IMG/VR virus record: IMGVR_UViG_3300027754_002431
Span: 1 to 28,290 of that record
DNA length: 28,290 bases
Direction: 5' to 3' (one strand)
Source of the DNA: a virus
This document shows positions 5,916 to 26,401 of this stretch, piece after piece. Positions within the stretch are counted from its first letter, which is position 1; each line of letters opens with the position of its first letter. Below the pieces are notes generated by a model, which had not been told where the DNA came from, ran no database searches, and worked only from the letters and a program-made list of their open reading frames with translations. The position numbers were made by a program, and so were the translations under genes.

Positions 5916-6259
5916 TGAAAAGGATACTATACTTATCGTTAATACTATTGGTTGGGTGTAGTGGACCTGAATTGCAAATGCCAGAAGGATTGGCAAGGGA
6001 TAATATATTTGGAATTACTCAAAGTAGTGTTACAAATAATCAATCTATACACTTTGATTTACCAGAAAAAGGAACTTATACACTAACTTTGATAGATAAA
6101 GAAAGTGGACAAGTAATCGGTAGAGATAGGTTTATTGGACAAAGTGGAGAAAATGTAAGAAAGATTTATACGAAATCGTTACAAAGTAGATATTTATATC
6201 TGTTATTAGAAGATGTTACTAAAAAAGAATTAGGAAAAACATTAATAATAATAAAATGA
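5915..6259 (+). CDS. Small lipoprotein with T9SS-CTD-like beta sandwich
   Basis: 114 aa. N-terminus 'MKRILYLSLILLVGCSGPE' is a lipoprotein signal with lipobox LVGC (Cys 15). The mature part reads as a short seven-strand-type beta domain: 'SIHFDLPEKGTYTLTLID', 'SGQVIGRD', then 'RYLYLLLEDVTKKELGKTLIIIK'. This resembles the C-terminal sorting domain (type A, Por secretion tail) of type IX secretion substrates, including the terminal 'KTLIIIK', but here it follows a lipid anchor and makes up nearly the whole protein. It overlaps the next lipoprotein gene by 4 bases (ATGA) and that protein has the same layout. Function unknown; an outer-membrane or periplasmic partner of the two large exported proteins is a reasonable guess. 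Confidence 0.72.
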   Translation: MKRILYLSLILLVGCSGPELQMPEGLARDNIFGITQSSVTNNQSIHFDLPEKGTYTLTLIDKESGQVIGRDRFIGQSGENVRKIYTKSLQSRYLYLLLEDVTKKELGKTLIIIK

Positions 6260-6630
6260 AAAAAATAGTAGCATCAATATTGGCAATTGGATTATTAGTA
6301 TCTTGTCAAAACGAAGAATTATTATTACCACCACCAACAATGGAAGTAACTGAAAAATTACAAATCGTTGGAAATATGGGTATTAAAGTAGAAACTCCAT
6401 TTGTAAAAAATGAAGTTGCTATGAATGTAAAGGCTGAAACTGCTGGAACATATGTAGTAAAAATATTAAACATAGCAAACAAATCAGTATCAAAAGAAGA
6501 AGTAACTATAAAAGCTGGTAATAATCTATTAAAGATTTACGCAAATGCATTACCATCTTCAGCATATAGAATTGGTTTATTCGATTTAGAAGGAAACCTA
6601 TTAGGAATAGCAGATTTTAACAAACTATAA
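6256..6630 (+). CDS. Small lipoprotein, paralogue-like to its neighbour
   Basis: 124 aa. Lipoprotein signal 'MKKIVASILAIGLLVSCQNEE' with lipobox LVSC (Cys 17). After a short acidic/Pro linker the protein has the same strand order as the preceding lipoprotein: 'AETAGTYVVKILNIANKSV', 'EEVTIKAGNNLLKIYANALPSSAYRIGLFDLEGNLLGIADF'. The 'G-T-Y-V-V-K-I...G-x-N-L-L...A-Y-R-I-G-L-F-D' pattern again resembles T9SS CTD-type beta sandwiches, without the final basic KK-type ending. Translationally coupled by ATGA to the upstream gene. The two may have arisen by duplication and might form a heterodimer; this is inference. Confidence 0.7.
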   Translation: MKKIVASILAIGLLVSCQNEELLLPPPTMEVTEKLQIVGNMGIKVETPFVKNEVAMNVKAETAGTYVVKILNIANKSVSKEEVTIKAGNNLLKIYANALPSSAYRIGLFDLEGNLLGIADFNKL

Positions 6631-9763: not shown

Positions 9764-10504
9764 ATGACACGAAAGGAAGCATTATATAATTCAAAATTAG
9801 CAGTATTAGCGTATTCAAATCAAGACCAAATTAAATGGGATGAATTGGGATTATCGTTAGTAAAGTGGATTGAGAATAAAAAATCAGATACACAAGGATT
9901 TGTAGCAACAAAAGGTAAAACTATATATGTTGTATGGAGAGGTAGTGAATCAAAGAAGGATTTCCAAAACGATGCTTCAATTGATAAAGTACCATTCTTA
10001 AACGAAGGTGAGAAAGTACATATTGGATTTAAATATTGTTGGGAATCGGTAGTAGGTGATACATACGATGCAATTGATACTGCAATAGAAAATCTAGAAG
10101 GTGAAACTACTGATATTGTAGTTAGTGGACATAGTTTGGGTGGAGCAGTAGCAACATTATATGCATACTCAATAAAGAAACACTATCCTCATTATAATGT
10201 TAGTTCAACAACTATTGGTAGTCCAAGAGTTGGTAATAAAACATTTAAAGAAAACTATGATAAAAGTGATATAGATACTCTACGAATAGTACATAACAAC
10301 GATTTAGTAACACATACACCATATATTAGATTTTATCACGTCAATCATCAAGTAAGATTAGATAATAACGGTAATAGATTGAAAAATGATAAATCACTAA
10401 AATCATTTTGGTTGTACCTTAAAGCAATATTTTCAGGTAAAAATATAAAAGACCATATGGGTGATGGGTATATGGAAGCCATACAAAATTGGGTAAAAAA
10501 ATAA
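9764..10504 (+). CDS. Class 3 lipase (alpha/beta hydrolase)
   Basis: 246 aa. Lipase class 3 features: 'VVWRGSESKKDFQND' (56-70) as the oxyanion-side motif, nucleophile elbow 'VSGHSLGGAVAT' with Ser 124, 'GSPRVGNKTF', Asp 180 in 'HNNDLVTH', and His 231 in 'KDHMGDGYM'. This completes a Ser-Asp-His triad. These enzymes hydrolyse glycerolipid esters. No signal peptide, so it acts in the cytoplasm or is released through the holin. Located after holin- and spanin-like genes and just before a terminator, it may attack membrane phospholipids during lysis; digestion of lipids for the phage or a virion-borne role are alternatives. The fold and triad are clear; the substrate is not. Confidence 0.88.
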   Translation: MTRKEALYNSKLAVLAYSNQDQIKWDELGLSLVKWIENKKSDTQGFVATKGKTIYVVWRGSESKKDFQNDASIDKVPFLNEGEKVHIGFKYCWESVVGDTYDAIDTAIENLEGETTDIVVSGHSLGGAVATLYAYSIKKHYPHYNVSSTTIGSPRVGNKTFKENYDKSDIDTLRIVHNNDLVTHTPYIRFYHVNHQVRLDNNGNRLKNDKSLKSFWLYLKAIFSGKNIKDHMGDGYMEAIQNWVKK

Positions 10505-10556: not shown

Positions 10557-11276
10557 ATGGGTATGAAAGAAAAATTAACAATAGTTATACCATCAAAAAA
10601 CGAAACCGATACTTTATATGATTGTTTACAATTTTTGTATAATCAAACTAGTATAGATGGTGTTAGGGTTATAGTAGCAGATATATCAGATGACCCATAT
10701 TCGGTTGGCATATTATATAAAGCTAGACGAGAGTTTAACGATAGATTAAATATAGAAATAATAAAAGGTGGGTATCCTGCTCAAGCAAGATTGGCTGGTT
10801 CTAAACTTGTTACTACTCCTTACATTCTGTTTTTAGATGCAGATGTAATGATTATGAATACCAATCTATTAAGTGATATATTCAAAAAGTTAGAAACAAA
10901 TAAAATACAATTATTAACTACTCCATTTAAAACTGCAAAAAGATGGGATTGGGTATTTCGTATTTTTGATATATTCCAATGGTTAAGTGTAAAAATAAAC
11001 ACACCATTTGCAGTAGGTGGATTTCAGTTATGGGATAGGCAAGCATACTGGTATGTGGGTGGGTATGTAAAGGATGAATTATTTGCAGAAGATTATTCAC
11101 TTTCATCAAAATCAAATCCAAAGTATTTTCATATACATAAAACAAAAGGAGTTTGGACATCACCTCGCAGATTTGAAAGCAAAGGTGTGATGTATATGGT
11201 TTCTCTAATGATAAAAAGTTACATCAACAGAAACAATCCTCAATTTTTTAAAAAACATCACAATTATTGGGTTTAA
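10557..11276 (+). CDS. Family 2 (GT-A) glycosyltransferase
   Basis: 239 aa from ATG 10557; ATG 10563 (MKEKLTIV) is an equally good start. 'LTIVIPSKNETDTLYDCLQFL' is the typical GT2 first strand, 'FLDADVMI' gives the metal- and nucleotide-binding DxD (94-96), and 'VGGYVKDELFAEDYSLS' holds the later Asp/Glu of the catalytic site (ED). It would transfer a sugar from a nucleotide donor to a surface glycan or lipid. No membrane segments. The closest neighbours are two small membrane proteins and an LpxH-like enzyme, which suggests an envelope-lipid target; this is inferred. Almost directly follows the terminator at 10522. Confidence 0.88.
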   Translation: MGMKEKLTIVIPSKNETDTLYDCLQFLYNQTSIDGVRVIVADISDDPYSVGILYKARREFNDRLNIEIIKGGYPAQARLAGSKLVTTPYILFLDADVMIMNTNLLSDIFKKLETNKIQLLTTPFKTAKRWDWVFRIFDIFQWLSVKINTPFAVGGFQLWDRQAYWYVGGYVKDELFAEDYSLSSKSNPKYFHIHKTKGVWTSPRRFESKGVMYMVSLMIKSYINRNNPQFFKKHHNYWV

Positions 11277-11278
11277 TT

Positions 11279-11310
11279 TTTGTAAATTTGAAATATTTTT
11301 CGTATATTAG
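11279..11310 (+). promoter_or_regulatory. Bacteroidota-type promoter (TTTG-N20-TATATTAG)
   Basis: TTTG at 11279-11282, 20-base spacer, TATATTAG at 11303-11310, compared with the Bacteroidota consensus TTTG-N19/20-TAnnTTTG (one mismatch in the -7 box). It lies just after the GT2 stop and 23 bases before the ATG at 11334, so it fits as the promoter of the 11334-12417 genes. AT-rich context makes chance matches possible. Confidence 0.5.
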
Positions 11311-11333
11311 TTGTATAAATAAAAAAATAAATT

Positions 11334-11429
11334 ATGGGCACTATATTTCCTTGGATTTTTGGATTCGCAGTTGTTACACTTGGTTGTATTATTATGATGA
11401 TTGTAGATGAGATTAGTAAAAAACGATAA
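11334..11429 (+). CDS. 31-aa single-span membrane peptide
   Basis: Short frame starting MGTIFPWIF and ending EISKKR: one hydrophobic segment (about residues 3-24, including 'GFAVVTLGCIIMMIV') followed by a charged tail. Preceded by an A-rich leader like other genes here and by a promoter candidate at 11279-11310. Its TAA overlaps the ATG of the next gene by one base (TAATG), exactly as the larger genes of the window do, which is the main evidence that it is translated. No function assignable; it may assist or stabilise the next membrane protein. Confidence 0.62.
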   Translation: MGTIFPWIFGFAVVTLGCIIMMIVDEISKKR

Positions 11430-11713
11430 TGTATAAAGAAGTAATCGTATTACTTTCTCAAACTCTATATAATATTTTCAAAGTATTAGAGATAAAATAC
11501 ACATATCAAAACAAAATAGGAGCACTCCTATTAAATTCAATTTGGATAAATTTAGTTGCATTGGCATCTACTTATTATGCAATTGATGATTTATTAAATG
11601 GTAGATTTACTATTGTAATATTTTACATAATTGGTTCTGTTTTGGGAAAATATTTGGGTATGCAATTTGGAAACCCTCGTAATAAAATTTGGAAAAAATT
11701 ATTTAAGAAATGA
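11429..11713 (+). CDS. Small multi-span membrane protein
   Basis: 94 aa. Hydrophobic stretches at about residues 31-50 ('LLLNSIWINLVALASTYYAI') and 58-78 ('GRFTIVIFYIIGSVLGKYLGM') with a weaker one near the N-terminus; the end is basic ('NPRNKIWKKLFKK'). It resembles small bacterial membrane proteins of unknown function but no family can be named with confidence. Overlaps the upstream peptide by one base and the metallophosphoesterase by four (ATGA), so production is coupled to both. Confidence 0.65.
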   Translation: MYKEVIVLLSQTLYNIFKVLEIKYTYQNKIGALLLNSIWINLVALASTYYAIDDLLNGRFTIVIFYIIGSVLGKYLGMQFGNPRNKIWKKLFKK

Positions 11714-12417
11714 AATACATAATAGTATCTGATTTACATTTGGGAACAAAGCATAGTAAAGCAAAGGAGTTCTTAAAATTCATTGAAGAAAATCCATGTG
11801 ATGAACTCATTCTTAATGGTGATATAGTTGATGGGTGGGCATTACAAAGAGGAACAAAATGGAGACCATCCCATACGAAAGTAATTGCTAAACTAATAAA
11901 ACTATCTACAAAACAAAAGGTAGTTTGGATAAGAGGTAATCATGATGATTTTCTAAAAGATTTTACTGGTATTAATTTGGGTAATATAAAAATTAAAGAA
12001 GATTATATTATTACCGCAGATAAACGATACTTTGTATTTCATGGAGATATTATAGATGTATTTATTACAAAATACAAATGGTTATCACAAATAGGAGCGG
12101 TTGGATACGATTTTGCTTTATTGTTAAATGATGTATATAATCGGTATCGTAAGTGGAGAAATCTACCATATTATTCAATCTCACAAAGAATAAAAGAGGG
12201 TGTTAAAATAGCAACCAATTATGTAAATGATTTTGAAACAACCGCAATCCGAATGGCAAGTGAAAAAATGTGTGATGGTGTTATTTGTGGACACATACAT
12301 CAACCTGCGGACAGAATGATTGGAGATAAACGATATTTAAATTCAGGTGATTGGGTTGAAAATATGACAGCAATCTGTATAAATGATAATAATAAGATAA
12401 CAATAAAAAAAGTATAA
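11710..12417 (+). CDS. LpxH-like calcineurin-type metallophosphoesterase
   Basis: 235 aa. Complete metallophosphoesterase signature: SDLHLG (D8, H10), NGDIVDG (D38), GNHDD (N77, H78), HGD (H111) and GHIH (H195, H197). The surroundings of motif 1 and 2 ('SDLHLGTKHSKAKEFLKF...ELILNGDIVDGWAL...SHTKVI') are those of the Bacteroidota UDP-2,3-diacylglucosamine pyrophosphohydrolase-like group, which makes lipid X in lipid A synthesis. No signal peptide, as expected for a cytosolic or membrane-peripheral enzyme. Phage genomes rarely carry lipid A enzymes. Placed with glycosyltransferases and small membrane proteins it suggests lipid A or glycolipid alteration. A nucleotide phosphodiesterase specificity cannot be excluded. 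Confidence 0.8.
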   Translation: MKYIIVSDLHLGTKHSKAKEFLKFIEENPCDELILNGDIVDGWALQRGTKWRPSHTKVIAKLIKLSTKQKVVWIRGNHDDFLKDFTGINLGNIKIKEDYIITADKRYFVFHGDIIDVFITKYKWLSQIGAVGYDFALLLNDVYNRYRKWRNLPYYSISQRIKEGVKIATNYVNDFETTAIRMASEKMCDGVICGHIHQPADRMIGDKRYLNSGDWVENMTAICINDNNKITIKKV

Positions 12418-12443: not shown

Positions 12444-13484
12444 ATGTTATCTTCAAAAATATTATTCGTTTTAAAAAGAAAACAAGATTATAATCTTTCA
12501 ACCGATTATAGTGTTGGATTAAGTACAGGTCTGTACAATTCGGCTCAATTTATGAATCAAATGCTATTAGATGGCGGAATAGATTCGGAAATGGTAGTTG
12601 TAAATGACAATAACGATATAGATAGAGAAGTAACTCTATACAAACCAACCCACGTTATTATTGAAGCTCTTTGGGTTGTTCCATCTAAATTTGAAGTTCT
12701 TTGTAAATTACATCCAAATGTTAAGTGGGTAATTCGTTTACATAGTGAAATACCATTTTTAGCAAATGAAGGAATGGCAATGGATTGGGTTGGAGAATAT
12801 AGTAAATTTAATAATATTATTATTTCTTGTAATTCACCACAAACAACCAAAGATATTGAGTTTTATCTTACTCATAAATTGGGTGTTACCAAAAAAGTAC
12901 AATTCTTACCAAATTTTTATCCACAACAATACAAAACAAAATCATTCAATAAAAAAAGTGATGTTATAAATGTTGGATGTTTTGGTGCAATTAGACCTCT
13001 CAAAAATCATCTCATCCAAGCAATTGCAGCAATTAAGTTTGCTGATAAAATTGGTAAAAAATTACACTTTCATATAAATTCAGATAGAGTTGAACAAAAA
13101 GGCGAACCAATACTTAATAACCTAATAGCTACATTTGAACAATTAAATCACAAAGGACATAAATTAGTTCATCACGAGTGGAGTGTTAGAGAGCAATTTA
13201 TAGAATTATGTTCTACTATGGATATTGGTATTCAAGTATCTTTTAATGAAACTTTTAATATTGTAGGAGCTGATATAGTTTCACAAGGAGTTCCATTGGT
13301 AGCATCACCCGAAATCCCTTGGGCTAGTAAATTGTTTACATCAAGACAAACAAATACGGATGATATTGTAGATTTACTAAATTGCACTTATTCGCATCCA
13401 AAAATAAATGTATTGTTAAATCAAAGAGGTCTTAAACAATATACAAATAATACTAAACATATTTGGTTTAATTTTTTCAAATGA
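12444..13484 (+). CDS. GT-B (GT4-like) glycosyltransferase
   Basis: 346 aa. Rossmann-type N-terminal half with 'THVIIEALWVVPSKFEVL' and 'VKWVIRLHSEIPFLANEG', then the C-terminal donor-binding half starting 'INVGCFGAIRPLKNHLIQAIAAIKFAD' and 'SFNETFNIVGADIVSQGVPLVASPEI'. The usual E-x7-E motif is present as E269-x7-D277, a conservative change. Cytoplasmic, using a nucleotide sugar. It stands alone between the metallophosphoesterase and the TTG-started surface protein, with its own promoter-like 15-mer at 12421. Acceptor unknown. Confidence 0.78.
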   Translation: MLSSKILFVLKRKQDYNLSTDYSVGLSTGLYNSAQFMNQMLLDGGIDSEMVVVNDNNDIDREVTLYKPTHVIIEALWVVPSKFEVLCKLHPNVKWVIRLHSEIPFLANEGMAMDWVGEYSKFNNIIISCNSPQTTKDIEFYLTHKLGVTKKVQFLPNFYPQQYKTKSFNKKSDVINVGCFGAIRPLKNHLIQAIAAIKFADKIGKKLHFHINSDRVEQKGEPILNNLIATFEQLNHKGHKLVHHEWSVREQFIELCSTMDIGIQVSFNETFNIVGADIVSQGVPLVASPEIPWASKLFTSRQTNTDDIVDLLNCTYSHPKINVLLNQRGLKQYTNNTKHIWFNFFK

Positions 13485-13513: not shown

Positions 13514-15124
13514 TTGAAAAATTTAAAAATACTATTAAGTGTATTATTTATATTTTGTCTAACTTCCAAAGCTAACGGACAGGCAACATTTACACAAACA
13601 TTTATAGATAAGTGCACTGGTGAAGTAAAACTTGCCACTACTACCTATGTCAATGGAAATGCTTTTGTATCATTCTATGACCAAATGAAAGTATTTACAC
13701 CCGAAGAAGTTCAAAGTGGTGCAATGAAAATTTGGTTACAAGCGGTATATATCACATATGCTAACAAAGGTTGTGCTGCAACGGTAGTTCAACAAACAGT
13801 TCAACAAACAGTAAATCAGGCAGTTCAGCAGGCAGCGGCAGCAGCAGCAACGCAAGCAGCGGCGGCGGCAGCTGCATCGGCAGCAGCAGCGGCTGCATCA
13901 AAAGCAGCAGAAGTAGCGGCATCGGCAGCGGCGGCGGCAGCTGCATCGGCAGCAGCCTCAAAAGCAGCAGAAGAGGCGGCATCAAAAGCGGCGGCAGAAG
14001 CGGCTTCAAAAGCGGCAGCGGCGGCGGCATCGGCAGCAGCTGGTTCAGCGGCTGGTTCGGCGGCTGGTGGGGCTGCATCTGGTGCGGCTAGTTCGGCAGC
14101 TAGTTCAGCTGCTTCATCGGCAGCCGGAGCGGCAGTTCCACCTCCACCGCCAACTCCATCTGCACCAACTCCATCTGCTCCTACACCAGCAGCCAATAAC
14201 ACACCTGCGCCTGCAAGTGGTGGTTCATCACAGAGTAGTAGTGGTGGAGCAGCCCCAAAAGCAGAGGCAAAGGCTGAAGCAAAAGCAGAGGCAAAAGCAG
14301 AGGCAAAAGCTGAAGCTAAATCGGAAAGTAAAAGTGAATCTAAATCTGAATCTAAATCCGAATCAAAGGAAGAATCCAAATCCGAAAGTAAGAGTGAGGA
14401 AAAGAAAGAAGAATCCAAAACCGAATCTAAAAAAGAAGAAAAGAAAGAAGAAAAGAAAAAGGTTGCAATAATAAACCCATTACTATTTGCATCTGATTTA
14501 AGTATAGTACAATCCGATACTGCCAAATGGGATGCAATTGTAACATTGGGTGTATCTCGTTCATCGGCAGCAGGTAATGTTAGTTATTCAGGAACAACTA
14601 TGATATGGTCTAGCTTAAAGCAATTTGCTTTGAGTGGTGGTATTACTAAAATGAACTTAAAGGGTGGAGCATTAGTATCTATGAACTCCTATTCAGTTAC
14701 TACTGCATATTTAAGTGGAACTTTAATGGGGTTAGCTGGATTTACTTGGATTAAACCACATCCTAAATTTGGTGTATATGGTTACAATGTGGGTTTGGTT
14801 AATTTACTATCACCACAAGAAACTGGCGGGTATTCGTATGGTATGAGTAGTTCAACCGTTGTGTTTTGGACTAAACCATATCAAATGAATAAAAAACTAA
14901 CACTTTCACCACAGATATTTACGATGTTACCGGGTGGGAGTTGGGATAGTTCTAATGGGGATATAAAAATGGGTAAAGATTTTGGATTTCTATTAGGAAC
15001 ATCCGTAGATTATAAATTATCCAAAAAGTTTGGTTTGAGTTTTAACTATAAGATAAACACATCAACTGCTTCAGGAGCACCGATATTAAGTAATTTCTTA
15101 ATAGGTTCTAGATTAATGCTTTAG
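13514..15124 (+). CDS. Exported Ala-rich / Lys-Glu-Ser-rich protein with beta-rich C-terminus, TTG start
   Basis: 536 aa. TTG 13514 is required: the codon before it is TGA and the next in-frame ATG (about codon 58) would lose the signal peptide 'MKNLKILLSVLFIFCLTSKANG|Q'. Residues ~24-95 form a small folded region with two Cys ('DKCTGEV', 'NKGCAATV'). Residues ~103-208 are almost all Ala with Ser/Lys/Glu, ~209-240 Pro/Ala/Gly linker, ~248-316 Lys-Ala/Glu-Ala then Lys-Ser/Glu repeats of high charge. The last ~220 residues alternate strands ('LKQFALSGGITKMNLKGGALVSM', 'KFGVYGYNVGLVNLL', 'KFGLSFNYKINT', ending 'GSRLML') and look like an outer-membrane beta barrel or similar. Plausibly a stalk-and-anchor surface protein. 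The Ala-rich part is locally GC-rich in an AT-rich genome. Alone in its unit, and convergent with the minus-strand gene at 15121. Confidence 0.75.
   Translation: MKNLKILLSVLFIFCLTSKANGQATFTQTFIDKCTGEVKLATTTYVNGNAFVSFYDQMKVFTPEEVQSGAMKIWLQAVYITYANKGCAATVVQQTVQQTVNQAVQQAAAAAATQAAAAAAASAAAAAASKAAEVAASAAAAAAASAAASKAAEEAASKAAAEAASKAAAAAASAAAGSAAGSAAGGAASGAASSAASSAASSAAGAAVPPPPPTPSAPTPSAPTPAANNTPAPASGGSSQSSSGGAAPKAEAKAEAKAEAKAEAKAEAKSESKSESKSESKSESKEESKSESKSEEKKEESKTESKKEEKKEEKKKVAIINPLLFASDLSIVQSDTAKWDAIVTLGVSRSSAAGNVSYSGTTMIWSSLKQFALSGGITKMNLKGGALVSMNSYSVTTAYLSGTLMGLAGFTWIKPHPKFGVYGYNVGLVNLLSPQETGGYSYGMSSSTVVFWTKPYQMNKKLTLSPQIFTMLPGGSWDSSNGDIKMGKDFGFLLGTSVDYKLSKKFGLSFNYKINTSTASGAPILSNFLIGSRLML
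13820..14462 (+). repeat. Low-complexity coding repeat (Ala-rich, then Lys/Glu/Ser)
   Basis: GCA/GCG/GCT-rich tract (about 13820-14133) coding poly-Ala blocks separated by Ser, Lys and Glu, followed by Pro-rich repeats of CCATCTGCA type and then near-perfect tandem units coding KAEA (about 14256-14320) and KSES/KEES (about 14320-14400). The frame is uninterrupted. Such tracts expand and contract by slippage, so length may vary between isolates, and they also create long meaningless open frames on both strands. Confidence 0.85.
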
Positions 15125-19377: not shown

Positions 19378-20769
19378 ATGGCAAAAAAGAAAATATTGTT
19401 ACTATCAGATGACCTACGAATGGCAAGTGGTATTGCTAATATGTCAAAGCAATTCGTATTAGGTACATTAAAAGATTTTGATTGGGTACAAATCGGTGCA
19501 GCAGTAAAGCATCCAGAAGAAGGTAAGATTATGGATTTATGTGATGATGTTCGTAAGAGAACGGGTATCGAAGATGCATATGTAAAAATCTATCCATCAT
19601 CAGGATATGGTACTGCGGATTCATTAAGGCAAATTATCAATATGGAAAACCCAGATGCAATCCTACACTTTACAGACCCGAGGTATTGGATTTGGTTATA
19701 CCAAATTGAGCACGAAATCCGTCAAAACATTCCAATCTTATTCTATCACATTTGGGATGATTTACCAGACCCACAATACAACAGAGATTATTTAGAGAGT
19801 TGTGATTGGGTTGGTACTATTTCAAGACAAACATATGGTATTGCTCGTAGAGTATGGGGTATGGATGCTAAATCACGTTGGAAACAACCAAAGGATTGGC
19901 AAGTAAAGTATGTACCACATGGTATCAACGATGTAGATTACAAACCAACAGAAATTGATGATAAGTTCTACAAAGAGGTATTGGGTGATAAAAAATATGA
20001 TTTCGTAGCATATTGGAACAACCGAAATATCCGTAGAAAGCAAGCAATTGATGTGATTGTTTCATTCAGAGATTTCGTAAATAATCTACCAGAAGAAAAG
20101 CGTGATAAATGTGCTCTATTGATGCACACACAAAAAGTAGATGAAAACGGAACTGATTTGCCAAAGGTGGTAGCAGATTTGTGTCCGGGCATCAATGTGA
20201 TATTTGATGATAGAAAGTGGACTGAAGCACAACTAAACCAACTATACAATATAGCAGATGTTACTTTAAACATTTCATCAGCAGAAGGATTTGGATTGGC
20301 TAGTGCAGAAAGTATAGTAGCAGGAACACCTGTTATTGTAAATGTAACTGGTGGATTGCAAGACCAATGCGGTTTCCGTTGGAAAGATAGTGGAGTAGCA
20401 TTAAACGAAGAAGATTATGTAGAGATTGGTTCTTTGCACGATTGGAGAAAGTTTGAAGATAAAGTAACTTGGGGAGATTGGGTTATTCCAATATGGAGTC
20501 GCTCTCGTTCTTACACCGGTTCACCACCAACACCATACATTATGGAAGACCACGTGGATAATTATGAGGTATCCTCTGCACTACGTGAGTTGTATAATAG
20601 GACTCATGCAGAGAGAAAGGCAATGGGATTGAGAGGTAGAGAGTGGGCTTTAGGTGAAGGTGGGTTATCATTAGAAAATATGTGTAAAACTATGACAGAT
20701 GGTATCAACGATGCATTAGAAAACTTTACACCTCGCAAGAAGTACGAATTATTTACATTAGACAAATAA
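19378..20769 (+). CDS. GT-B glycosyltransferase (GT4-like)
   Basis: 463 aa. N-terminal half with 'KKILLLSDDLRMASGIANMSKQFV', typical of GT4 enzymes (strand, then Gly-rich SGIA loop), and 'DAILHFTDPRYWIWL'. The C-terminal donor domain holds 'SSAEGFGLASAESIVAGTPVIV' with the E-x7-E motif E303/E311. Longer than a typical GT4 (about 380), with an insertion around 'VTWGDWVIPIWSRSRSYTG'. It would move a sugar from a nucleotide donor to phage DNA bases, virion protein or host glycan; the acceptor cannot be read from sequence. First of a five-gene glycosyltransferase group, two to four bases apart from its neighbours. Confidence 0.85.
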   Translation: MAKKKILLLSDDLRMASGIANMSKQFVLGTLKDFDWVQIGAAVKHPEEGKIMDLCDDVRKRTGIEDAYVKIYPSSGYGTADSLRQIINMENPDAILHFTDPRYWIWLYQIEHEIRQNIPILFYHIWDDLPDPQYNRDYLESCDWVGTISRQTYGIARRVWGMDAKSRWKQPKDWQVKYVPHGINDVDYKPTEIDDKFYKEVLGDKKYDFVAYWNNRNIRRKQAIDVIVSFRDFVNNLPEEKRDKCALLMHTQKVDENGTDLPKVVADLCPGINVIFDDRKWTEAQLNQLYNIADVTLNISSAEGFGLASAESIVAGTPVIVNVTGGLQDQCGFRWKDSGVALNEEDYVEIGSLHDWRKFEDKVTWGDWVIPIWSRSRSYTGSPPTPYIMEDHVDNYEVSSALRELYNRTHAERKAMGLRGREWALGEGGLSLENMCKTMTDGINDALENFTPRKKYELFTLDK

Positions 20770-20772
20770 GTT

Positions 20773-22038
20773 ATGGCAGATATTAAAAAACCTTTATTAT
20801 TATTTCAAGCACCAGTTAGTACAAGAAGTGGTTATGGTGACCACGCACGAGATTTGGTTCGTTCCCTAATTAAATTGGATAAATACGATGTTCGTATCAT
20901 ATCTACACGTTGGGGAGTAACACCTATGACGGCATTAACTGCAAACGATGAAGATATTATACAACGAATTGTTGTTGGTGTAGATAGAAAGCCAGATGTT
21001 TACATACAAGTTACAGTCCCAAATGAATTTCAACCTATGGGTAATTACAACATTGGTATTACTGCTGGGATTGAAACAACTGCTTGTTCGGTTGATTTTA
21101 TACAAGGATGTAATCGTATGGATTTAATTATTGTACCATCGGAGTTTTCAAAAGAGGTATTAGTTAAAACTACATACAGCGAAACTGATAAGAATACAAA
21201 GCAGGTAATCAAACAACATGGATTAGAAAAGCCAATTGAGGTTTTATTTGAAGGATACAACGAAGAGTTTTTTGGTAAAAAACCAGAAACAAAATTTGTA
21301 GAATTGGATAAGATTAAAGAAGATTTTGCTTATCTATTTGTAGGACATTGGTTGAGAGGTGATTTAGGGCACGATAGAAAAGATGTAGGTATGATGATTA
21401 AATCATTCTGTCACGCGTTTAGAGGGCAAAAGAACCCACCTGCACTTATCTTAAAAACATCTTCGGCAGGTTTTTCTGTAATGGATAGGGAAGCAACTAT
21501 GGGTAAATTAGAAGAGGTTACGGAAGAGTTTGGTAAAAACACTCCACCAATCTATTTACTGCATGGTGAGTTGAGTGATGAAGAAATGAATGCGATGTAC
21601 CACCACCCAAAGGTAAAAGCTATGGTTTCGTTTACACATGGGGAAGGATTTGGTAGACCTCTGTTAGAGTTCAGCTTAACAGGTAAGCCGGTGGTAGCAT
21701 CTAATTGGAGTGGACATTTGGATTTCCTAAAAAGTGGTGCAGTATTATTGGATGGTGAGTTGAAAGATATACACCAATCAGCACAAGACCAATTCATTTT
21801 AGAAGGAACAAAGTGGTTTTATGTAAATTATACTGGAGCAATTAAAACATTAACTGATATTTATAAGGGATACGATAAGTATAAACCTGCATCACAACAA
21901 TTAGGAAAACAAAACCAACAAAACTTTGGTTTGGAAAAAATGACTAAATTGTTTGATACTATTTTAACAAATTATGTTCCAACAATAAAGCAATTTATTC
22001 CATTAAACTTACCAAAGCTGACGAAGGTAGATGAATAA
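20773..22038 (+). CDS. GT-B glycosyltransferase (GT4-like)
   Basis: 421 aa. Opening 'KPLLLFQAPVSTRSGYGDHARDLVRSL' is the GT4 N-terminal strand with the SGYG acceptor-side loop; 'DVYIQVTVPNEFQPMGNYNIGITAGIETT' and 'DLIIVPSEFSKEVL' are usual for this family; the donor site has 'SFTHGEGFGRPLLEFSLTGKPVVAS' with E291-x7-E299. Cytoplasmic. Overlaps the next gene by eight bases. Together with its neighbour at 19378 it could add successive sugars of one glycan. Confidence 0.88.
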   Translation: MADIKKPLLLFQAPVSTRSGYGDHARDLVRSLIKLDKYDVRIISTRWGVTPMTALTANDEDIIQRIVVGVDRKPDVYIQVTVPNEFQPMGNYNIGITAGIETTACSVDFIQGCNRMDLIIVPSEFSKEVLVKTTYSETDKNTKQVIKQHGLEKPIEVLFEGYNEEFFGKKPETKFVELDKIKEDFAYLFVGHWLRGDLGHDRKDVGMMIKSFCHAFRGQKNPPALILKTSSAGFSVMDREATMGKLEEVTEEFGKNTPPIYLLHGELSDEEMNAMYHHPKVKAMVSFTHGEGFGRPLLEFSLTGKPVVASNWSGHLDFLKSGAVLLDGELKDIHQSAQDQFILEGTKWFYVNYTGAIKTLTDIYKGYDKYKPASQQLGKQNQQNFGLEKMTKLFDTILTNYVPTIKQFIPLNLPKLTKVDE

Positions 22039-22570
22039 CCTATATTATTATATTCCATATTTCTATGTAGAGAAACCAACAACTAAATCACAGATTAAGA
22101 ATGGTGCTTTTTATAGATTATATGGGTATGATTATGTAAATGGTTCATCTAAAACCTACGGTCCATCACAGACTCCACTATTAATGACGTTGGGATTTAA
22201 CAGAGGCGATAAATTATTACATTGTATTAAGTTAAACCCTTTGCCATTAAGAGTGTATAGTCAACTAATGAAGAAGATACAAGACCCATTATATGTGGTG
22301 GCATTGTTAAAGGATATACAAAATACCAATGCACTTATTAGTGAAAATTTGGAATATGACCAGGGAGCAAAACCAATTATAATAGATAGAACAGGTAAAT
22401 CTTTTTATCAAAAACAAGTTAAAACCAATCCACTACTTAAACCATATGATTGTTATAGAACATATAAAATACCGGGATTAAAAAGAGTAACGGAGGTATA
22501 TTTTAATGTGGAAAAATTAGGTAAAAAAATAGGGTTAGAATTAGTACCAATAAGTTACAATAAAAAATAG
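22031..22570 (+). CDS. Uncharacterised 179-aa phage protein inside the glycosyltransferase group
   Basis: No glycosyltransferase motifs. Tyr-rich start 'MNNLYYYIPYFYVEKPTTKSQIKNGAFYRLYGYDYV', then 'TPLLMTLGFNRGDKLLHCIKLNPLPLRVYSQLMKKI'. The second phrase (P-L-x3-L-G ... I-x-L-N-x-L-P ... R) recalls a group of phage proteins with 'GINLHYLP...R' in T4-like genomes, some of which I vaguely recall labelled as DNA end protector or virion proteins; I am not sure of this link. The Lys-rich C-terminus ('YFNVEKLGKKIGLELVPISYNKK') could bind DNA. Overlaps the upstream gene by eight bases, so it is expressed with the glycosyltransferases. Confidence 0.55.
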   Translation: MNNLYYYIPYFYVEKPTTKSQIKNGAFYRLYGYDYVNGSSKTYGPSQTPLLMTLGFNRGDKLLHCIKLNPLPLRVYSQLMKKIQDPLYVVALLKDIQNTNALISENLEYDQGAKPIIIDRTGKSFYQKQVKTNPLLKPYDCYRTYKIPGLKRVTEVYFNVEKLGKKIGLELVPISYNKK

Positions 22571-22573
22571 ATT

Positions 22574-23200
22574 ATGCAAATTAGTTATGGTGTGACCGTA
22601 TCCAACGAAATAGTTGAGATACAAAATCTTATAGAACGATTATCTACTAATAAAAGAGTAGAGGATGAGATTGTAATTCAGTTTGACTCATCAACCGCAA
22701 CAATTCCCGTTGTAGAATATCTAAACGAATGTGTGATTAATGCTAAAATACAAAAGTTAGTATCATTTCCATTAAACGGAGATTTCGGACAGTTTAAACA
22801 ACACCTAAATCAAAATTGTAGTGGAGATTGGATTTTCCAATTAGATGCAGATGAAGATTTAGAGTCAACACTCATCCAAAACTTACATACTATATTAGAA
22901 GAAAACCCAGAAATAGATATGTTTTGGCTACCACGTATCAACATTGTAAATGGTGTAACGCCTGATGATATACAAAAGTGGGGATGGAATATAAGTGAGC
23001 AAGGTTGGATAAATTATCCAGATGTGCAAGGTAGATTATACCGAAACAAACAATCAATCTTTTGGGCAGGTAAAGTACACGAGAAAATACAGGGTTATGA
23101 AAGTTATTCCATATTTCCACCAGAAGAATTATATTCAATCAAACACATCAAAGATATAGATAGACAAAGAAAACAAAACGATTTCTATGAGCAACTATAA
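22574..23200 (+). CDS. Family 2 (GT-A) glycosyltransferase
   Basis: 208 aa. Begins 'MQISYGVTVSNEIVEIQNLIERL' (GT2-type first strand and helix), has the metal-binding 'QLDADEDL' (D91, D93), and the later 'AGKVHEKIQGY' phrase typical of GT2 enzymes of the 'VHExL' type. Shorter than average, without a C-terminal extension. Its end overlaps the next gene by 14 bases. Acceptor unknown. Confidence 0.83.
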   Translation: MQISYGVTVSNEIVEIQNLIERLSTNKRVEDEIVIQFDSSTATIPVVEYLNECVINAKIQKLVSFPLNGDFGQFKQHLNQNCSGDWIFQLDADEDLESTLIQNLHTILEENPEIDMFWLPRINIVNGVTPDDIQKWGWNISEQGWINYPDVQGRLYRNKQSIFWAGKVHEKIQGYESYSIFPPEELYSIKHIKDIDRQRKQNDFYEQL

Positions 23201-23834
23201 AGAGGTTTCAGTTGTAGTTACATCTTGTAACAGACCAGATTTGTTAGAGAAAACTTTGGATAGTTTCAATGATTTTAACACACATCCAATCAAAAAGTTT
23301 ATAGTGATTGATGATAGTGGTGTAGTTGGTTGTAATAATGACTTGATTAAAAAGTATCCATTCATTAAGTTTATAGATAATCCCAAAAACATAGGACAAG
23401 TTCGTAGTATAGATAAAGCATACTCTATGATTACAACTCCTTATGTATTCCATATGGAAGAAGATTGGGAGTTCTACAAAGAAGGATTTATTGAGGCTTG
23501 TTTAGATGTAATTGATTTGGATGAAAAGATTATATGTGTATGGACAAGAGACCCCAACGATACACCACACCCATCCATAGACCCAACCTATGCTGTAAAT
23601 GGCAGGGGAGTTCGTAGATTGATTTGGGGATTTGATGGTCATTGGCATGGATTTACATTCAACCCATCAATGCGAAAGATGAAAGATTATCCAAAGGATG
23701 GATATACACCGATTGGTAGAGAATTAGAAATAAGTAAATACTATTACGAAAGAGAATACTTTGCTATGATATTTAGAGAAGGATATTGTAAGCACATAGG
23801 TTGGGATAGACATGTGGTAGACGTAGGAGAATAA
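23187..23834 (+). CDS. Family 2 (GT-A) glycosyltransferase with EED motif
   Basis: 215 aa. 'EVSVVVTSCNRPDLLEKTLDSF' is a textbook GT2 start, 'KFIVIDDSG' the second strand, 'NIGQVRSIDKAYSMITTPYVFHMEEDWEF' the core. The usual DxD is replaced by E91-E92-D93 in HMEEDWEF, a variant I recall from phage and giant-virus enzymes of this family. Later His and Trp residues ('GFDGHWHGFTF', 'KHIGWDRHV') may line the acceptor site. Start overlaps the preceding gene by 14 bases; the stop overlaps the next start by one base (TAATG). Confidence 0.85.
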   Translation: MSNYKEVSVVVTSCNRPDLLEKTLDSFNDFNTHPIKKFIVIDDSGVVGCNNDLIKKYPFIKFIDNPKNIGQVRSIDKAYSMITTPYVFHMEEDWEFYKEGFIEACLDVIDLDEKIICVWTRDPNDTPHPSIDPTYAVNGRGVRRLIWGFDGHWHGFTFNPSMRKMKDYPKDGYTPIGRELEISKYYYEREYFAMIFREGYCKHIGWDRHVVDVGE

Positions 23835-25030
23835 TGGAAACAATAGAAATAATACCAGATTTTACATTTTGTATCACCAGTAAGAATAACTTACGATACT
23901 TAAAGTATGCAGTTCAATACATTAGAGAGAACTGCTATAACAAAGACCATAAGATATTAGTATTCATAGATGCCGATAATGATGGTACAGAGGAGTGGTG
24001 TAAGGAGAATGGTGTAGAGTATCATAAGAACCCACATAGTGAATTGTATGGTATTGGTAATGCATATAACTTATTGGTTGAGAAGGCAACTACGGAGTTC
24101 GTAGTGATATACCACGCAGATATGTTAGCTGGTAAAGATATGGATTTAAACCTATATAAGAATTGGCAGAAAGGTATAGTAGTATCAGCTACCCGTATAG
24201 AACCACCATTACATCCTGCAGACCCAGCAAAGATAGTTGAGAACTTTGGGTTATGGCCTGAAGAAGATGTGAAAGAAGGTTTTATGAAACAAAGGTTTAA
24301 TGATTTCGTAGAACATAATTTAGATAATGATAGAACAACCAAAGGTGTATTTGCACCCTGGCTCATCCATAGAGAAGATTTCTTATCGGTAGGTGGGCAT
24401 GACCCAATTATGAAATCACATAGTGAGGATAGAGATTTGTTTAATCGTTTCTTACTAAATGGTTATGATTTCATCCAACCTTGGAATGCATTGGTTTATC
24501 ATTTAACTTGTAGAGGTGGACAATTTGAACACGCAACTCAAACAGACGATTTGGCAAAGAAGAGTGATGATTGGAATAATTTAGCATTTAGACAGACAAG
24601 AGAGTTTATCCGTAAGTGGGGAACAACACCACTATATGATGAATACCAATACCCAACGATAATACCAAAATATGATATTGCTTTGGTATTGGAAAATGCA
24701 AGAGAAGATGTAGTTGGTTATTTAGAACCTTATTTTTCAAACATCTATTGTGATACTGAAATAGCAGTTGATTATTTGGCAAGTGAATTGAAACTTACAG
24801 ATATTGATATAACCCAAAAGTTTAAACCATTAGATAGTGCCACATATAACGATATAGTGGTTAAGTGTAATTGTGATGATTTATTGGCAAATCAAGAAAG
24901 GTTTAAGTTCATAACAATGATGCCAATGGTGATACACGATAATAATTCAGTTGGTAAATTTAAATACGATGTCTTTGATATATCGGTAAATAAACTAATA
25001 GAGTATCAAAATTCATTGGTTAAACTTTAA
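23834..25030 (+). CDS. Family 2 (GT-A) glycosyltransferase with C-terminal extension
   Basis: 398 aa. 'DFTFCITSKNNLRYLKYAVQYIREN' and 'KILVFIDADNDGTEEW' open a GT2 fold; 'FVVIYHADMLAG' carries the metal site as HAD (94-96); 'GGHDPIMKSHSEDRDLFNRFLLNGYDF' gives the catalytic ED. Residues ~275-398 are an additional C-terminal domain ('KYDIALVLENAREDVVGYLEPYFSNIYCDTEIAVDYL...') with no recognised family, which may bind a partner or acceptor. Last of the glycosyltransferase group; followed by a motif-like AT tract and the structural genes. Confidence 0.84.
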   Translation: METIEIIPDFTFCITSKNNLRYLKYAVQYIRENCYNKDHKILVFIDADNDGTEEWCKENGVEYHKNPHSELYGIGNAYNLLVEKATTEFVVIYHADMLAGKDMDLNLYKNWQKGIVVSATRIEPPLHPADPAKIVENFGLWPEEDVKEGFMKQRFNDFVEHNLDNDRTTKGVFAPWLIHREDFLSVGGHDPIMKSHSEDRDLFNRFLLNGYDFIQPWNALVYHLTCRGGQFEHATQTDDLAKKSDDWNNLAFRQTREFIRKWGTTPLYDEYQYPTIIPKYDIALVLENAREDVVGYLEPYFSNIYCDTEIAVDYLASELKLTDIDITQKFKPLDSATYNDIVVKCNCDDLLANQERFKFITMMPMVIHDNNSVGKFKYDVFDISVNKLIEYQNSLVKL

Positions 25031-25070: not shown

Positions 25071-26024
25071 ATGCCTGCACAGTCAAAAGCACAACAAAGA
25101 TTTATGGGAATGGTTCACGCCGCTCAAAAGGGTGAAATGGATAACCCATCAACCGAAGTAGAAAAGGCAGCAGATTCAATGACTGATAAAGCAGCAAAAG
25201 ATTTCGCATCTACAAAACACAAAGGTTTACCAAACCACGTGAAGAAAGAAAACAAAATAGATTTGGAAGATGAAGATTTACCATCCGCAGTAGTACCGGG
25301 TGTTAGTGTTGAAAACACTATGAAGGTGTATGATGCTAATTGTGGTTGTTTTAGAACCGAAGGTGTAAATCCAAATGCCACTATGGCATCATTAGAAGAT
25401 TTACCAAATAATAGAACTCAAAAGAATTTCCCACTACCAACTAACAGAATACTTTGGAACGCAACTGGTAAAGTATGTGAAGGTAGACCTGTTGTTGAAC
25501 GCATCAAAATGTATGAGAAGAAAGGTGGTGGTTGGAGAGAAGGTATAGCAGATGATGAGCAAGTATATAACTCAATAAAGGAGTTGCATAGTGAGAGAAA
25601 GCAAGTAGAAGAAATCAAAGAAAGTGTTAGAGCAATTTTAAAAAAAAAAGTTCAAACCGAATCTAAACTAAACGAAGATATATCGGATATTGTAATGAGT
25701 GGATTACAAATGATTGGTATTGTAGCTAGTAGTTTATTTTTAAGATTTTTAATTAGATATATAATTGGTGAGTTTTTAAAATCAACAAAGGATACAACAA
25801 TGAATGGAATAAAGAGTATTATTCAGGGTGTTAAAAATGCTTGGACTTCATTGAAGAATATAAGTAGAATACGTGAATTGGAAAAAGAATTAAAAGATGA
25901 TGAGGATATTAAACATGCAGTATCACATCCAAAAACAGTAGATTTTGCAAAGGTTTTGAGAATAAAGTTAGAAGCAAAAGATTATGATTTAATAAGCAAG
26001 ATAACTAGAAATAATTTTAGATAA
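25071..26024 (+). CDS. DUF3008-type phage protein with long C-terminal extension
   Basis: 317 aa. The first ~60 residues, 'PAQSKAQQRFMGMVHAAQKGEM...ADSMTDKAAKDFASTKHKGLPNHV', match the short phage-protein family known as DUF3008, usually 60-100 aa alone. A middle region with 'DANCGCFRTEGVNPNATMASL' and a charged helix follows. The C-terminal part has a strongly hydrophobic stretch ('VMSGLQMIGIVASSLFLRFLIRYIIGEFL', about 203-231) and a charged end, so this looks like a fusion of DUF3008 with a membrane-seeking domain. In many phages such proteins lie with head or tail genes; a minor or internal virion protein is my guess. Coupled by TAATG to the next gene. Confidence 0.72.
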   Translation: MPAQSKAQQRFMGMVHAAQKGEMDNPSTEVEKAADSMTDKAAKDFASTKHKGLPNHVKKENKIDLEDEDLPSAVVPGVSVENTMKVYDANCGCFRTEGVNPNATMASLEDLPNNRTQKNFPLPTNRILWNATGKVCEGRPVVERIKMYEKKGGGWREGIADDEQVYNSIKELHSERKQVEEIKESVRAILKKKVQTESKLNEDISDIVMSGLQMIGIVASSLFLRFLIRYIIGEFLKSTKDTTMNGIKSIIQGVKNAWTSLKNISRIRELEKELKDDEDIKHAVSHPKTVDFAKVLRIKLEAKDYDLISKITRNNFR

Positions 26025-26401
26025 TGGAAAATAAAGATTTACAACAATATATAGCAGATACACAACACTTTTCAAATGCATTGAAGTTCTTTCATTGGCA
26101 AACTAAAATCTATGCAAAGCACATAGCATTGGGTGAATTGTTTGCTGGTGTAACAGAATTGATTGATGAGTTTACCGAAACAGCAATGGGCAAGTATGGT
26201 AGAGTTGATGTAGCTGGTTTATCTTATGATTTTGTAAATATCAGCGATGCTAATGTAATAACTGCAATTGATGATATGATTGAAAAAGCAATCAATCTTA
26301 CAGATGTATTAGATGCAAGAAAGGATACAGACTTATTAAACTTACGCGATGAGTTGATGGGCAAATGTAATAGAACAAAATACTTACTAACATTAAAATA
26401 G
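26024..26401 (+). CDS. Dps/ferritin-like small phage protein (DUF5856-like)
   Basis: 125 aa, all-helical. 'FSNALKFFHWQTKIYAKHIALGELFAGVTELIDEFTETAMGKYGR' has the Dps-type order: His-Trp at the end of the first helix, a second His, then a Glu-rich helix, followed by two more helices. Phage proteins of this size and pattern (I believe DUF5856) are common beside structural genes. Whether the metal site is functional is unclear: only part of the Dps ferroxidase residues are in place. Might bind iron or simply use the four-helix fold. Starts on the stop of the DUF3008 gene; four bases before the ParB-domain gene. Confidence 0.68.
   Translation: MENKDLQQYIADTQHFSNALKFFHWQTKIYAKHIALGELFAGVTELIDEFTETAMGKYGRVDVAGLSYDFVNISDANVITAIDDMIEKAINLTDVLDARKDTDLLNLRDELMGKCNRTKYLLTLK

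Follow-up and report, generated by a model that had tools for sequence, protein, structure and literature searches.

In bacteria, PlcP is described as stripping the head group from phospholipids, and Agt as glycosylating the resulting diacylglycerol (PMC4796936, PMC8528852). For P. aeruginosa the gene order plcP followed by a glycosyltransferase gene (PA3219-PA3218) has been published (PMC8528852), and Fjoh_4577 of Flavobacterium johnsoniae was reported as a PlcP which is strongly induced without phosphate (PMC8115612). PlcP is also known from Phaeobacter MED193 and SAR11; the comparisons made here are with the enzymes of S. meliloti and P. aeruginosa. Genes for the uptake of phosphate are familiar in phages. 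In titles and abstract openings, with most subscription journals outside the scope, no description of a phage PlcP was found. Genes named lpxH are present in virome gene lists (PMC10653327, PMC9611531, PMC13253880) and in the gene table of a phage isolation study (PMC12837969). One was predicted in Xanthomonas phage X1, with a suggested effect on LPS and adsorption (PMC13384950). Viral lpxH has been read as an auxiliary gene for LPS or glycan synthesis (PMC10653327, PMC9611531, PMC13253880, PMC13384950).

The DNA investigated here, referred to as the window, is a virus record of 28,290 bases (IMG/VR IMGVR_UViG_3300027754_002431) analysed at its full length. T4-like clamp-loader matches were located at 107-832 and 1309-1830, and a tRNA search of the window found none. 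Judged by sequence comparison, the window rather probably carries a phage PlcP-glycosyltransferase pathway of membrane lipid remodelling. Its genes are listed in Table 1. All four open reading frames lie where the first-pass annotation had placed them. The overlaps that it described, TAATG of one base and ATGA of four, are both present in the sequence, and the glycosyltransferase (GT2) that it placed next to the metallophosphoesterase (MPE) group was recognised by Pfam.

Table 1. Genes of the MPE locus (positions in the window)
Feature	Position	Strand	Evidence
GT2 glycosyltransferase, 239 aa; proposed lipid (diacylglycerol) glycosyltransferase	10557-11276	+	PF00535 Glycos_transf_2, 3.6e-14
Hydrophobic ORF, 31 aa; probably lineage-specific or not a gene	11334-11429	+	open frame with hydrophobic stretch
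Membrane protein, 94 aa, between GT2 and MPE	11429-11713	+	without Pfam family; dN/dS 0.09-0.15
PlcP-type metallophosphoesterase (MPE), 235 aa; proposed phospholipase C	11710-12417	+	Metallophos, 9.2e-16; identities; trees

The MPE was compared with two PlcP references. The first, from S. meliloti (CP090106, L272), has genes for a LuxR regulator and an AHL synthase beside it; this agrees with the place of SMc00171 next to sinR/sinI, and on this basis L272 was taken as PlcP. The second (L273), from P. aeruginosa, is encoded on a plasmid record and followed by a glycosyltransferase gene, which matches the published PA3219-PA3218. Both references are 47% identical to each other; the published value for the two enzymes is 46% (PMC8528852). 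Over nearly the full length, the MPE showed 37% identity (165 bits) to PlcP of S. meliloti and 38% (176 bits) to PlcP of P. aeruginosa. The corresponding E-values of 4e-55 and 2e-59 were obtained from single pairs and are not database E-values; a BLASTP E-value below 1e-40 to the MED193 PlcP served as search criterion for PlcP in published work (PMC4796936). The MPE resembles the characterised enzymes in subfamily, metal residues and identity and, as seen for P. aeruginosa, in having a glycosyltransferase gene next to it. It differs from them in being phage-borne and in its length of 235 aa, compared with 270-281 aa for the known PlcPs.

A relative from Algoriphagus reached 47% identity (227 bits) to the MPE. 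The values were 23% (38 bits) for LpxH of E. coli and 25% (46 bits) for the LpxH-like paralogue in the same Algoriphagus genome. The motif CGH[IST]H was detected in 131 of 134 viral, all 80 cellular and both PlcP sequences, and in none of 13 LpxH or LpxH-like proteins. According to the first-pass annotation, which corresponds to the current database label, the enzyme is LpxH-like, hydrolyses UDP-2,3-diacylglucosamine and alters the supply of lipid A. The NCBIfam LpxH model NF003743 is indeed the best-matching NCBIfam model for the MPE, which scored 50.5 bits (E 1.5e-13) against a curated cut-off of 134. Paralogues were surveyed in 14 genomes (12 of Bacteroidota, 2 of Verrucomicrobiota), and none passed this cut-off; the Bacteroidota LpxH-like proteins were likewise below it (48.6-100.3 bits). 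In each of the 12 Bacteroidota genomes searched, such an LpxH-like gene was found besides the relative of the window MPE and outscored it, whereas the two Verrucomicrobiota genomes gave one match each with the LpxH model. The name LpxH-like for these 12 paralogues follows from their score rank and from the signature GDxFDxW, which all 12 possess. This signature is absent from the MPE.

In structural comparison, LpxH gave the best matches. All nine PDB profile matches and the twelve best fold matches of the MPE are LpxH, the best of them with a TM-score of 0.57 and 18% identity. No PlcP was seen among the best 50 of 585 structure matches listed; hence, the fold search cannot separate LpxH from PlcP. 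The MPE shares its fold and metal site with LpxH. The MPE copies of Pelagibacter phage Mosig and Synechococcus phage S-SRM01 are also annotated as UDP-2,3-diacylglucosamine hydrolase or diphosphatase, in agreement with the LpxH reading.

In phylogenetic trees of 36 and 47 rows, calculated with care, nine LpxH-like rows, assigned to LpxH by inference, were split from all others at 100/100. The other side comprised both characterised PlcPs, proteins of Bacteroidota and Verrucomicrobiota, plasmid-borne relatives and the phage rows, so the MPE lies in a clade with characterised PlcPs that excludes LpxH, with an unsure position of the root. The window belongs to a phage clade with support of 100/99 (36 rows) and 98/93 (47 rows). 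Both characterised PlcPs fell into a subclade other than that of the window. Mosig and a few IMG/VR rows stand outside the phage clade, nearer to proteobacterial proteins. S-SRM01, E. coli LpxH and a Thioclava protein were included in a quick tree only. There, E. coli LpxH, whose branch is very long, fell within the LpxH group, and S-SRM01 and the Thioclava protein on long branches on the PlcP side. The longest branch separates the LpxH-like rows from the rest. Attachment of the LpxH-like group at the window's own branch was not rejected by the AU test (p 0.237). The root position is unsure because of this very long branch between the families and the AU result. In a separate AU test on a quick tree of 70 rows, both constrained trees were better than the free tree, itself a poor one.

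Membership of the MPE in LpxH was rejected in view of its score, its position outside the LpxH-like clade and the missing signature. Phylogeny was the check that had been set beforehand for the lipid A idea, and the MPE fell outside the LpxH group. Considering also the separate, better-scoring LpxH-like gene of the Bacteroidota genomes, hydrolysis of UDP-2,3-diacylglucosamine is very unlikely. By sequence and tree, the MPE is classified as a member of the PlcP family.

All metal-site motifs are kept, as the first-pass annotation stated. In an alignment of 52 relatives from viruses and bacteria, no variation was found at D8, H10, D38, N77, H111, H195 and H197, which we take to be the metal ligands by analogy with the MPE/LpxH family. 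These seven residues and the MPE fold, modelled with a pLDDT of 88.6, agree with PlcP membership. In the lid (residues 111-180) the model is of lower confidence, with block means of 57-84. The lid residues Y133, N140, S156, K162 and K166 are invariant from bacteria to phages, and W124 is nearly so. Purifying selection was indicated by dN/dS values of 0.09 and 0.12 (two pairs). The sequence GDFCEN was observed in 21 of the 134 distinct viral loci (L211:5983-6702 and 20 loci between L212 and L241), compared with GDWVEN elsewhere.

Viral relatives of the MPE were collected by two IMG/VR scans. The best 80 of 111 encoding stretches were used from the first scan and the best 80 of at least 567 from the second, for which an alignment served as query. 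This gave 156 viral MPE loci, 134 of them distinct after identical stretches around the gene end had been dropped; the viral counts therefore describe near relatives, that is, the best-scoring loci of both scans. In 50,697 phage records, six matched the MPE at E 1e-3, among them Mosig (40% identity) and S-SRM01 (29%, two records). A further record, MT836169 (L084, human faecal, "Bacteriophage sp."), encodes a Bacteroides-type MPE and a glycosyltransferase and groups with Bacteroides; it may be bacterial DNA.

A homologue of the window GT2 was detected by BLAST upstream of the MPE, on the same strand and within 0.8 kb, for 117 of the 134 distinct viral loci. The genes overlap or are at most 60 bp apart in 91 loci and are separated by 61-1000 bp in 24 (largest gap 772 bp); the remaining two were scored as downstream, but this is an artefact, the MPE having been given too long a start. 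Within 4 kb of the MPE, the sense-strand family that ranks next was present in 28 loci. Upstream GT2 was missing from 17 loci. Four of these (L002, L007, L074, L242) have under 1 kb of upstream sequence. In the remaining 13, at least 2.3 kb is available, and these loci speak against a pairing without exceptions. In one viral locus without GT2 (L208) a PF13528 glycosyltransferase overlaps the MPE, as in bacterial loci; a frame break truncates this MPE (5989-6597), which has no GHIH metal segment.

The reciprocal search, starting from GT2, gave comparable results. Among the best 80 GT2 loci, 76 contained an MPE, located less than 200 bp downstream in 65, at 327 and 767 bp in two, and in reversed order in nine. 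On contigs outside the MPE-derived set, which accounted for 31 of the 80 loci, the MPE was found in 27. Two of the four GT2 loci without MPE are on contigs that end right after GT2. In the other two (L339, L344) GT2 is followed by an unrelated protein of 507-508 aa, and the MPE is absent although the sequence continues. The nine reversed loci hold a second MPE lineage with 42-46% identity to PlcP of S. meliloti and 42-45% to that of P. aeruginosa. One GT2 family is thus paired with two PlcP-type lineages.

GT2 and MPE together form the conserved unit. A small phage pathway altering lipid A supply or a glycolipid had been suggested in the first-pass annotation. Its lipid or glycolipid route via MPE and GT2 is supported by this context; its lipid A and LpxH part is not. 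The pairing also bears on a different function, in which the MPE has a nucleotide substrate, perhaps as a phosphodiesterase in counter-defence, and is unconnected to the adjoining GT2. The MPE fold includes nucleases and cyclic nucleotide phosphodiesterases, and such models and structures match the MPE. However, GT2 is paired with it in either order and from either starting gene, and the MPE is closely related to PlcP, which makes a nucleotide substrate extremely improbable.

The two small proteins between GT2 and MPE were proposed earlier as members of the pathway, but they are conserved in too few loci. Both have hydrophobic stretches, and neither matched a Pfam family at E 0.1. A homologue of the 94-aa protein was found in 6 of 156 viral loci. 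The gene is under purifying selection in three pairs (against L064, L052 and L180); the protein is real but rare. Beyond the window, the 31-aa frame was found only in L001, whose MPE, 94-aa and GT2 proteins are identical to those of the window, and not in L052, L064 or L180, all with the 94-aa gene. It lacks support. A class-3 lipase (PF01764, 1.9e-30) is encoded directly upstream of the pair at 9764-10504. It was rejected as part of the cassette, its homologue being present in just 3 of 156 viral loci. At 13514-15124 the window encodes an alanine-rich protein of 536 aa with homologues in 37 of 156 viral loci. Its signal-like N-terminus presumably resembles those of secreted Bacteroidota proteins. 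A 125-aa protein (26024-26401) matches a PHROG named starvation-inducible transcriptional regulator (1.2e-18).

For GT2, the residues D94xD96, E178-D179 and R204-R205-F206 are invariant in 27 rows. The model is of the GT-A type (pLDDT 94.2), and fold, DXD motif and family score agree with membership in PF00535. GT2 has no strongly hydrophobic stretch and is under purifying selection (dN/dS 0.18, one pair). PF13506 (GT21), which we take to be the family that includes ceramide glucosyltransferase, matched 21 of the 27 GT2 members at E 0.01 (best 4.8e-10); the window GT2 gave 0.0029, below the family cut-off. This signal hints at a lipid acceptor, no more. With tblastn at E 1e-5, the window GT2 had no match in the 50,697 phage records. 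In 149 genomes from the class of a Dyadobacter genome, relatives of the MPE were found in 75 (E 1e-30) and relatives of GT2 in five (model E 1e-20), the top one scoring 93 bits. From these counts, GT2 appears to be a family of phages.

The nearest solved structures to the GT2 model are WrtF, TarP and PcManGT, which act on glycans or polymers, judged by the structure titles. The window also contains a glycosyltransferase cluster at 19378-25030, with two GT4-like and three GT2-like genes, and besides it a 346-aa protein with a weak glycosyltransferase match at 12444-13484. The pair could alternatively modify a surface glycan or polyprenyl-linked sugar: GT2 would add a sugar and the MPE trim a phosphodiester or pyrophosphate, with the effect of masking the receptor or keeping other phages out. 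Both the cluster and the structural neighbours of GT2, which include glycan and teichoic acid transferases, are consistent with this. The MPE, however, is of the PlcP lineage with lid residues kept from bacteria to phages, and its bacterial homologues adjoin glycosyltransferases of the PF13528 or MGDG synthase-like kind, joined by a diacylglycerol kinase in the one locus where this was checked. We regard modification of a surface glycan as unlikely.

The bacterial neighbourhoods were examined in the best 80 of at least 590 MPE-encoding stretches of a genome scan. In these 80 loci, 60 open reading frames of at least 150 aa start within 100 bp of the MPE end; 58 were scanned, one of two overlapping frames being omitted in L142 and L160. 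PF13528 was assigned to 41 of the 58, MGDG_synth (MGDG synthase) to three and PhoU to four. Bacterial MPE homologues thus mostly adjoin glycosyltransferases of other kinds than GT2. A motif scan of the bacterial loci gave five diacylglycerol-kinase-like frames. One of them (L302:4116-5042), located after an MPE homologue and its glycosyltransferase, was recognised by Pfam as DAGK_cat at 3e-25. The phage locus is like that of Agt1 (PA3218) and other plcP partners in having a glycosyltransferase gene beside plcP. Unlike them, it contains GT2 with a weak GT21-like signal, whereas GT4-type models fit Agt1, and most bacterial partners belong to PF13528.

Sequence relationships point to a probable host among the Bacteroidota. 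No terminase was present among the scanned window proteins. The terminase of a related phage (L011 contig) is nearest, among phage records, to that of Flavobacterium phage immuto (54%), followed by Microcystis phage Mel-JY01 (52%). In the trees, the MPE phage clade is close to proteins of Bacteroidota and Verrucomicrobiota.

Unlike the described PlcP systems, the window shows no sign of phosphate control, and the phage enzyme is known from its sequence. No E. coli-type Pho box was found before the window genes; this consensus is of the E. coli type, and that of the host may differ. The Bacteroidota -7 motif was no commoner in the window than by chance. In Mosig, PstS-like and PlcP-like genes are divergent across 150 bp (L082:11839-11988), an arrangement which fits a gain of phosphate, but PstS was detected in no more than 2 of 22 phage records, and Mosig is the only one in which it adjoins the MPE. 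A search between the two Mosig genes found no Pho box of the E. coli type. The gap holds the tandem TTTAACA-N4-CTTAACA, possibly a phosphate box; the pattern was written after the site had been seen, so its rarity proves nothing. No mention of lipid or phosphate was seen in the Mosig announcement (PMC7892664). PhoH was found in 18 of the 22 records. It is common in phages, and its co-occurrence is therefore weak evidence. As co-occurring phosphate genes, PstS and PhoH are both weak.

Because of the kinship to PlcP and the pairing with GT2, the two-step PlcP-Agt chemistry is proposed for the phage. The MPE would be a cytoplasmic, metal-dependent phospholipase C of the PlcP type, with a helical lid holding the phospholipid. 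It would cleave off the phosphate-bearing head group and leave diacylglycerol, onto which GT2 would move a sugar from a nucleotide sugar to give a glycolipid. A bilayer lipid would thereby be kept in the membrane while phosphate-bearing head groups are released. As purpose, salvage of phosphate for phage DNA synthesis is our first choice. Second comes a changed envelope, through receptor masking or membrane charge, which is as easy to imagine. We infer the substrates of both enzymes, the glycolipid product and the purpose from kinship and pairing. The proposal builds on family membership, on the conservation of the metal residues and on purifying selection, together with the pairing seen from both starting genes. 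Points against it include the Pfam family of GT2, which is other than that of Agt1 and the PF13528 glycosyltransferases, and its structural matches to glycan or polymer enzymes.

In general, and tentatively, large T4-like phages, mainly of Bacteroidota, may possess a two-gene kit which, in the infected cell, converts phospholipids of the host to glycolipids and uses the membrane as a phosphate store for viral DNA. PlcP lineages and glycosyltransferases might have been combined into such kits on more than one occasion, and the kits might have gone unnoticed since pipelines call the PlcP gene lpxH. If the proposed pathway is true, the lpxH label on PlcP-type phage genes would be corrected, and phages would have an apparently new route for taking phosphate from the membrane lipids of their hosts. 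Infection would then be tied to lipid remodelling in phosphate-poor waters.
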